Shown: positions 5,494 to 16,804 of the stretch, piece after piece
Layout: every line of letters begins with the position of its first letter
How positions within the stretch are numbered: position 1 is the first letter of the stretch
NCBI GenBank assembly: GCA_028819845.1
Contig: JAPPKS010000012.1
Span: 62,001-126,000 of the forward strand
Direction of reading: 5' to 3'
DNA from: Candidatus Poribacteria bacterium
GTDB lineage: Bacteria > Poribacteria > WGA-4E > PCPOR2b
DNA: 64,000 nucleotides
Translations under genes and position numbers: made by a program
The notes under the pieces: model-generated
The model's input: the letters and a program-made list of their open reading frames with translations, nothing else
What the model was told of the DNA's origin: nothing
Database searches by the model: none

Positions 5494-6966
5494 CTACCGT
5501 GAACGCCGAGCGCCGGAACCTCTTGAGACGAGTCCAACTGTCAGGAAATTGGCGGCTAGCCCCCAAACCCCGGCGTGGATACCCATGGGTTTCGTTGCGA
5601 TTCCCAGCCCAGCAAGGTTGGCGAACATGATTGCCAGTGCAACGCAGGTTCCGATCACGAGCCCCGACAAAACCGCATCGGAACGCAGCGATTTCAAATG
5701 TACGCCGAGAAAGATCGCGGGCGCGGCTTGACACAACAGTTCGAGTTTAATCTCTGTTAACCGCCAGAGTGTTTGTGGGAGTTGAATTGCCAGAATCACG
5801 AGTATTGCCATAAGCCCCCACGAGAAAACTTTACCCGTGACGGTCAGGCGATGCTGAGAAGACTTTGGACGAATCCGCATATACAGGTCCTGCGTGAATA
5901 CGGAGGAGATCGCGAGGAGCGCGGAGTCAACGGTAGACATAATGGCAGCCACAGCGGCTGAAAGAAAGAGGATGAGCAGAAATCGCACGCTGGGAAGCCG
6001 TTCCGCAATGTCATTGAGCAAGAACAGAGTAACCTGCTCACTGCCTTGTTTATCTAAGCCCGGAAACTGTGCCGCGCCGACGAGACCGACAACAAACATA
6101 AAAAAGGTAGTGAAGATTGGCATGAAGACCATAATTTGGAAAGATCGCCGCAGCGTCAGTTCGTCCTTAGCGGCGTAGATGCGCTGGACGGCGTGCGGGT
6201 AGATTGACGGGCCAAAAAATACGATGATCAATGTGCTCAGCCAAGTGAACTTTTGCTGCAGCGATGGCGGACGCCAAAAGGCGGGTTGGGCCGTCATGAG
6301 TTTCTCCGCGGCGGCGGACAATCCGCCGTATTGGTAACTAATGACGCCAAAGATAAAAATGCACCCCGCCGCCAGAAGAATTCCTTGGATAGCATCTGTC
6401 CAGGCGACACTTCGAAGCCCACCAAGCGTTTCATAAACCAGCATAATTAGCGATAAAACAACTATGCCTTGAACAAATGTCACGTACCCTCCAGTCGATG
6501 CCTCAACGATGTAACCGATTGCTTTAAGGTTGCTCAGGATGTAATTCCCGAGTGTGATTATGAAAATTACGGTCGAGAGCGACGTCAGCGGGGTAGATTT
6601 GAATCGCTGCTGGATATAGTCGCCGATTGTGATATAACCGTATTGGCGGGAGAGTCGATGCATTTTGGGAGCATATACCAGGTAAGCGCCGACGATTGAC
6701 ATCACAAACGTGACGCTAACCAGAAAAAAATACCCTGTTCGATATACATTTCCCACAAACCCGACTAGCGTGAGGCCGCTGTATTGCGTTGCATACAGGG
6801 TAAGGAATAAGACCATCAGTCCGAGTCCCCGGTTGCCGAGGAAAAAGTCGGACATTGAGTTTTCACGGCGTGCAAATCGTCCAGCAAGTCCTACTACAAT
6901 CAGGGATGTCAAATAGATTCCCATAAAGATTACGCCGCCAGGCCCGAGCAGTGCTGTCGAATTCAT
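5494..6966 (-). CDS. Sodium:solute symporter (SSF family)
   Basis: This 490-residue inner-membrane transporter has the 12-13 hydrophobic segments and sequence marks of the SSF family. These include an N-terminal periplasmic start then GIYLTSLIVVGLAGRFA, the SDFFLGNRGLGL loop, IGDYIQQRF, and ETLGGLRSVAWTDAIQGILL, which corresponds to the conserved GG..av..TD..Q signature. Members import sugars, amino acids, pantothenate or similar solutes with sodium; the substrate cannot be told from sequence. The ATG has only a weak GGAAATG-type site. A small two-helix membrane protein is encoded just upstream on the same strand, the usual arrangement for this type. Confidence 0.92.
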   Translation of the reverse strand: MNSTALLGPGGVIFMGIYLTSLIVVGLAGRFARRENSMSDFFLGNRGLGLMVLFLTLYATQYSGLTLVGFVGNVYRTGYFFLVSVTFVMSIVGAYLVYAPKMHRLSRQYGYITIGDYIQQRFKSTPLTSLSTVIFIITLGNYILSNLKAIGYIVEASTGGYVTFVQGIVVLSLIMLVYETLGGLRSVAWTDAIQGILLAAGCIFIFGVISYQYGGLSAAAEKLMTAQPAFWRPPSLQQKFTWLSTLIIVFFGPSIYPHAVQRIYAAKDELTLRRSFQIMVFMPIFTTFFMFVVGLVGAAQFPGLDKQGSEQVTLFLLNDIAERLPSVRFLLILFLSAAVAAIMSTVDSALLAISSVFTQDLYMRIRPKSSQHRLTVTGKVFSWGLMAILVILAIQLPQTLWRLTEIKLELLCQAAPAIFLGVHLKSLRSDAVLSGLVIGTCVALAIMFANLAGLGIATKPMGIHAGVWGLAANFLTVGLVSRGSGARRSR

Positions 6967-15879: not shown

Positions 15880-16036
15880 ATGCCCCTCCTTGTGTCAATT
15901 GAGTCTGTTGCTGTCGTACAAAACCAACATTGAATGTTGGGATGAATGTAAATTGTGTTTATCCGCATGGGTTGGATTCTCGGTGAATATTGTGAATATA
16001 GGCAAATAACCGGTGGAAACTAATTCTAAGGATGCA

Positions 16037-16804
16037 TTAACCAATGACCCGAAAATCATGCAGACCGTGACGGAATATTACAACCCCGTTCATGTTAGTT
16101 ATATTGATTTTTATCTCATATCGACTGAACCAAGCAACAAACCCTGTTATAATTTCGCCTCCATGGAGCGTCGCCGTCACCAAAATTCTATCTTTGCAGC
16201 ATTTATTGAGGATGCTGTCCTCAACGTGGAATCGATCGGATTTTGGGACGATGGCGTCTAGCTTCCGGCGTTTCAATGCTTCATCGAAAGCAATGCGCGG
16301 CAAAATTTGAAATGCTTGATTTCGCTTATACATGTATTTGATGCTTATTTTTTCAATACGCCGCATCTTCCCGTCGGATAAAACATCGAAAGCGTAAGTC
16401 ATCCGGCGAATGATAACACCTACAAGCGTTTCGCCGTACCGTGCAAAAACCATGAGTGTCTTCTTTCGAATCTGCTTTTGCACGTAGGAACGACCAAATC
16501 CTTCTGCACGGATCTGCGCCAACAATTTTGGGGCTAATTGACGGCGTGCCGGTGTATTCCAAGATTTACTATTCTTTTGCCTCCGTGCTTGTCCGTACGA
16601 GACTTGGGACTGGGTGAAATACATCTGTTCTGCAGAAACTGAACCCCGTGAATCGCTTTGAGGGCGCCAGAAACTGGTTATCGGAATCACCATTAGCGAG
16701 TTGAGTTCCTTATATCGGTTGAATGCGGCATCGGCGGCGGTGGATAATCCAGAAACGTGTATGTTCCAGATCGTTAAATCGACTAGTGCGGTGTATTGGA
16801 ACAC
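16037..16804 (-). CDS. Protein with two Sm/Hfq-like domains
   Basis: The 255-residue frame ends in a convincing Hfq-like fold: a short helix HVEDSILNKCCKDR, strand ILVTATLHGG, bent strand EIITGFVAWFSRYEIKIN, and final strand NGVVIFRHGLHDF, where FRHG sits where Hfq has YKHA (about residues 190-253). Residues 112-160 (RKKTLMVFARYGETLVGVII, then FDVLSDG and RIEKISIKYMYK) repeat the same strand pattern, suggesting a tandem Sm module. Hfq binds small RNAs and mRNAs, so RNA binding is a reasonable inference. The GTG start has no clear ribosome binding site; an ATG at 16624-16622 (residue 61) may be the true start. It stands alone. Confidence 0.6.
   Translation of the reverse strand: MFQYTALVDLTIWNIHVSGLSTAADAAFNRYKELNSLMVIPITSFWRPQSDSRGSVSAEQMYFTQSQVSYGQARRQKNSKSWNTPARRQLAPKLLAQIRAEGFGRSYVQKQIRKKTLMVFARYGETLVGVIIRRMTYAFDVLSDGKMRRIEKISIKYMYKRNQAFQILPRIAFDEALKRRKLDAIVPKSDRFHVEDSILNKCCKDRILVTATLHGGEIITGFVAWFSRYEIKINITNMNGVVIFRHGLHDFRVIG

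Follow-up and report, generated by a model that had tools for sequence, protein, structure and literature searches.

The window, a stretch of 64,000 nucleotides from a poribacterial contig, carries an open reading frame of 255 codons with a GTG start (16037..16804, minus strand, as are all features of this gene given below) that encodes a tandem Sm/Hfq-like protein. Its true start is likely the ATG at 16693 (M38), which would give a coding sequence of 218 residues (16037..16693). Residues 1-37 of the longest frame have no counterpart in the homologues, whose N-termini (MAARSKTSVW, MTSFKTLVWRP or MQKGKILAW) align near M38, and an AAGGA sequence is located at 16711-16707, 13 nt 5' of this ATG. 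About 100 nt 3' of the stop codon there is a terminator-like hairpin, assigned by pattern match only (15924..15940), and no structured RNA was found near the gene. Between closely related genes of this type, a comparison to which the window copy itself does not belong, dN/dS is about 0.11-0.24, and hence the type is under purifying selection.

Because the homologues start near M38, the N-terminal part of the protein, which an earlier note on this DNA had taken to be 110 residues long and unexplained, shrinks to about 65 residues. It consists of a conserved W-R/T-P motif and a basic disordered tail. The motif, TSFWRP (residues 43-48, 16661..16678), was delineated by conservation; its consensus [ST]xxW[RT]P is common to the tail-type members of several poribacterial families, in which it appears as LVWRA, LIWRP, RVWTP or SVWTP. 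The tail (residues 49-102, 16499..16660) is predicted to be disordered from its pLDDT and is rich in K/R. Residues 37-86 are unstructured in the AlphaFold2 model (pLDDT <50), and K/R outnumber D/E in the tails of all tail-type members examined, where about 45-130 basic-tail residues follow the motif.

The AlphaFold2 model, calculated from a 46-sequence alignment, contains two successive complete alpha-beta5 Sm units with a pLDDT of about 95 and nearly equal element lengths. Module 1 (residues 103-160, 16325..16498), delimited by the model and by a module-1 HMM, comprises a helix at 105-113 and strands at 117-122, 126-134, 138-143, 146-151 and 155-160. Module 2 (residues 192-255, 16040..16231), delimited by the TIGR02383 model, matches to Hfq in the PDB and AlphaFold2, is of the Hfq type and comprises a helix at 196-204 and strands at 208-213, 217-226, 230-234, 240-244 and 248-253. 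The modelled linker between them (residues 161-191, 16232..16324) forms two helices, 161-170 and 175-180. A model of L034, a paralogue with a cold-shock domain, shows the same Sm tandem; its cold-shock domain is poorly modelled, yet it is strongly recognised by Pfam. The best 50 Foldseek matches of the window protein model are all Hfq (E of 9e-5 to 4e-4, TM by target of 0.71-0.89), and so are the best 50 matches of the L034 model. As the Foldseek output does not specify which module was aligned, these matches directly support at least one Sm fold, and the second follows from the secondary structure and from a sequence bridge through the single-Sm protein L153 (see below). The model and the Foldseek matches thus bear out the proposal of two Sm/Hfq modules in tandem.

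The C-terminal module had been said to follow the Hfq pattern with FRHG in place of YKHA, and this is corroborated by above-chance matches to two family models: TIGR02383 (NCBIfam Hfq) over residues 193-246 (E=3.2e-5, 23.7 bits; the equivalog cut-off is 61.7 bits) and Pfam Hfq over residues 196-246 (E=5.5e-4). The window protein was not reported by Hfq_1 (PF21979), which has a gathering cut-off of 27 bits. Searched with the window sequence alone, Hfq chains in the PDB matched at 0.11 or worse; the family profile found the Hfq-like chain 5dy9 (2.4e-6), M. jannaschii MJ1435 (3.6e-6) and Caulobacter Hfq (8.6e-5). The FRHG motif occupies residues 244-247 (16064..16075) and corresponds to YKHA of E. 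coli Hfq. In E. coli Hfq, F42, K56 and H57 form the uridine pocket of the proximal face, and Y25 is the distal-face aromatic residue on which purines stack. In the alignment, module 2 has Y229 for F42, R245 for K56 and H246 for H57, so that both the proximal pocket and a YKH-type motif are present, whereas module 1 keeps K152 alone. The position of Y25 is taken by T212. Among the 46 sequences F244 is invariant and H246 nearly so; Y229 is invariant in the family, and position 245 is either R or Q.

Module 1 of the window protein matches no library model of its own (Pfam, NCBIfam). The suggestion that it repeats the Sm strand order agrees with the AlphaFold2 model, but the accompanying equation of ISIKYMYK with YKHA does not hold. 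In the alignments it is IEK (residues 150-152) that stands opposite YKH, which makes YMYK part of strand 5; the Sm2-motif equivalent is the longer segment IEK-ISIKYMYK (residues 150-160, 16325..16357), in which K152, K156, Y157, Y159 and K160 are invariant. An HMM built from diverse module-1 sequences finds L153 with E=4e-7 across the whole Sm region. L153 is a 93-residue single-Sm protein of the early-branching genome G060, and it scores above the Pfam cut-offs of Hfq_1 (40.7 bits) and of Hfq (29.6 bits). The same HMM scored the Hfq proteins of S. aureus, B. subtilis and L. monocytogenes above 1500 of 1500 shuffles and that of C. crescentus above 1499 of 1500, all in the same register, and could not distinguish E. 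coli, Thermotoga and Aquifex Hfq from shuffles; some of these canonical sequences came from the PDB-chain search, and the Hfq family model verified that of E. coli. With a narrow alignment, hhalign gave module 1 versus Hfq a probability of 2.9%. By sequence, module 1 thus resembles canonical Hfq weakly.

A repeat visible in the sequence, as the earlier note had it, was not borne out: the likeness of the two modules is one of fold only. Neither module's HMM recognises the other module better than shuffled sequences, and hhalign gives a probability of 0.2%, so a tandem duplication that shows in the sequence was rejected. Single-Sm proteins are encoded in early-branching poribacteria at L153:2152-2433(-) and L152:2005-2385, and a protein from another poribacterial family (L175:2116-2700(-)) joins just one Sm unit to a cold-shock domain; these three are likely stages that preceded the tandem. 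As G060 has separate proteins resembling module 1 (L153) and module 2 (L152), the tandem is no less likely to have arisen by the fusion of two Hfq-like genes than by a duplication.

In the host genome, which measures 4.6 Mb and is 97% complete, the family has one tail-type member, the window gene, and one cold-shock-type paralogue, L002. The latter is a protein of 324 residues with an N-terminal cold-shock-like domain, which shows the N-terminal sequence of the cold-shock-type relatives, followed by the same two Sm modules. A cold-shock domain precedes the tandem in most family members: PF00313 was found in all 38 cold-shock-type paralogues scanned (best E of 5e-21), and a Pfam scan found none in the window protein. 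L002 reaches 24.3 bits against Hfq_1, under the cut-off of 27, and its paralogues in other genomes pass. Altogether, 22 poribacterial genomes have module-2 or single-Sm proteins that do so; among these are many of the cold-shock type, by their module 2, and the single-Sm proteins of G060. In a tree, most of the cold-shock and tail types separate from each other; the basal branches are not resolved and long branches were flagged. A third, diverged tandem subfamily with the pattern VRFVTYTG...YRHGL was observed in order-level relatives (L172:113-571, with L150, L151 and L171), and the second module of L172 passes the Pfam Hfq cut-off (38.7 versus 27 bits).

A conserved operon around the window gene was considered and rejected, as seven homologous loci share only the window gene between 6 and 27 kb. 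In sister genera the tail-type gene does have conserved neighbours; the window gene lacks them and stands alone. The neighbourhood of the cold-shock-type gene is conserved, including at L002. In loci L034-L087 (at about 5500-6900), it usually lies beside genes whose families were named by eye, namely a gene for a Cys-rich protein (49 of 54), a short DUF971-like gene (47 of 54) and a ferredoxin gene (35 of 54).

A match to the tandem family was found in 80 of 85 poribacterial genomes and in all 56 good ones (>=90% complete, <=5% contaminated), although a few of the latter contain diverged copies only and G060 contains weak single-module matches only. The initial kinship search likewise gave a match in each of 59 genomes, so the homologues that were to be sought in related genomes are present in nearly all of them. 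Across 84,980 prokaryote species, a scan with module-1 peptide patterns, which distant relatives elsewhere could escape, returned 62 loci, all titled Poribacteria. As far as searched, the family appears confined to Poribacteria. A mobile or viral origin was rejected, as relatives were absent from the viral contigs and plasmids searched. The equivalog cut-off of TIGR02383 was reached in none of the 85 poribacterial genomes and in 4 of 14 control genomes, and the weak matches to this model within the phylum coincide very largely with matches of the tandem-family profile.

Large poribacterial proteins that contain sacsin, GmrSD_N, UvrD-helicase or RNase_H_2 domains (L156:5080-8703(-), L157:2036-5758, L158:2063-6076, L159:4237-6930(-), L162:2216-5593 and L167:2876-3961(-)) also bear diverged Sm tandems, at their C-terminus or close to it. 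In several of them a cold-shock or S1 domain follows the tandem. These proteins possibly represent a defence-related use of the Hfq module. PADLOC gave no match for the window protein.

Hfq normally has one Sm domain per chain and assembles into a hexameric ring. The window protein shares with it (TIGR02383, PF17209) the alpha-beta5 Sm fold, the [YF][KR]H motif and the aromatic and basic proximal-pocket positions in module 2, and the general type of a small basic RNA binder. It differs in having two Sm units per chain, in scoring far below the equivalog cut-off, in having its extension at the N-terminus, where Hfq has a C-terminal tail, and in missing the distal residue of the Y25 type. The 'Hfq related' model Hfq_1 (PF21979; also Hfq_rel_Cyano, NF047718), whose cut-off is passed or approached by cold-shock-type module 2 and by single-Sm poribacterial proteins, describes one Sm unit in 61 positions and no tandem. 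Cold-shock proteins (PF00313) share a genuine domain with the start of the commoner paralogue, but not with the window protein. Archaeal and eukaryotic Sm/LSm proteins (PF01423) have the same fold and ring logic, but module 2 is closest to Hfq and to the M. jannaschii Hfq-like protein. Set against two joined Hfq domains, NF010691 (176 positions) was an ambiguous candidate for a model of a tandem Hfq. The Hfq and Sm folds are already known; in the open-access literature searched, we found no tandem Hfq, no cold-shock-Hfq fusion, no phylum-wide form of this kind and no report of Hfq or small RNAs in Poribacteria. A 2002 survey of Hfq distribution reportedly may mention double Hfq genes.

The explanation that we favour, and to which we give somewhat better than even chances, is that Poribacteria use this protein, an RNA binder with tandem Sm units, in the place of Hfq. 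Since the family is nearly universal in a phylum that lacks an ordinary Hfq, it is probably the poribacterial version of this RNA chaperone. The fold, the homology to Hfq, the phylum-wide conservation, the purifying selection and the lack of any above-cut-off Hfq all support this reading; the replacement of Y25 by T and the lack of the H of YKH in module 1, as judged from the alignments, speak against it, as does the weak sequence likeness of module 1 to canonical Hfq. Each chain would consist of two Hfq-type Sm folds, and a pseudo-hexameric ring would probably be made of three chains, with two different Sm surfaces following each other in turn around it. Module 2 would bind uridine through the retained proximal-face pocket (Y229, R245 and H246), and module 1 together with the altered distal face (T212) would provide a second, different contact with RNA. 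An additional grip on single-stranded RNA would come from the basic disordered tail in the window paralogue or from the cold-shock domain in the commoner one, which would allow the protein to hold and anneal two RNAs or to shield an mRNA. This model predicts an RNA specificity, a chaperone activity and a division of labour between the paralogues.

One could argue instead that the protein is a scaffold or a binder of partners and that the Sm ring is an oligomerisation platform for the attached domain, not an RNA annealer. The occurrence of similar Sm units on such different proteins as those with GmrSD_N, sacsin-like, UvrD-helicase or RNase_H_2 domains suggests a general add-on, and several RNA-contact residues of Hfq are not conserved. 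However, module 2 retains the aromatic residue, the R/K and the H of the proximal pocket, and the attached domains themselves bind nucleic acid, so we regard this explanation as unlikely. An RNA binder of another stoichiometry, in which the two modules are folded onto one another or assemble into rings that are not trimers (e.g. a tetramer with eight units), is improbable to much the same degree. The linker is indeed long, with about 31 residues and two helices, and as the modules differ in sequence, the contacts within a ring could depart from those of Hfq. Nevertheless, all five strands are kept in both modules, including strands 4 and 5, through which Sm proteins touch one another in their rings. 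Least credible by far is a chain in which the C-terminal module alone has the Sm fold and module 1 is some other small beta barrel: the missing library match and the weak hhalign result for module 1 are outweighed by the close agreement of the helix-5-strand pattern and turn lengths between the confidently modelled modules, by the bridge through L153 and by the Hfq proteins of four species that beat at least 1499 of 1500 shuffles in one register.

Returning to a tandem-Sm protein in the role of Hfq, a wider and more tentative scenario, to which we would give somewhat less than even odds, is that the phylum has swapped the homohexameric, one-domain Hfq for chains that pair two different Sm units and are joined to either a cold-shock domain or a W-R/T-P motif and a basic tail. 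The result would be an asymmetric pseudo-hexameric RNA chaperone whose two kinds of binding surface alternate, the tandem would have been used also in large defence-like proteins, and its origin would have been the suggested fusion.

A genome in which the standard model fails is usually recorded as lacking Hfq. A nearly universal two-module relative in a phylum with no above-cut-off Hfq means that sRNA regulation may exist where it was thought to be missing. Furthermore, such a chain, with its two dissimilar Sm units, would be a bacterial counterpart of the eukaryotic hetero-oligomeric LSm rings. Single-domain and fused forms occur inside one phylum, which makes the history of that step testable.
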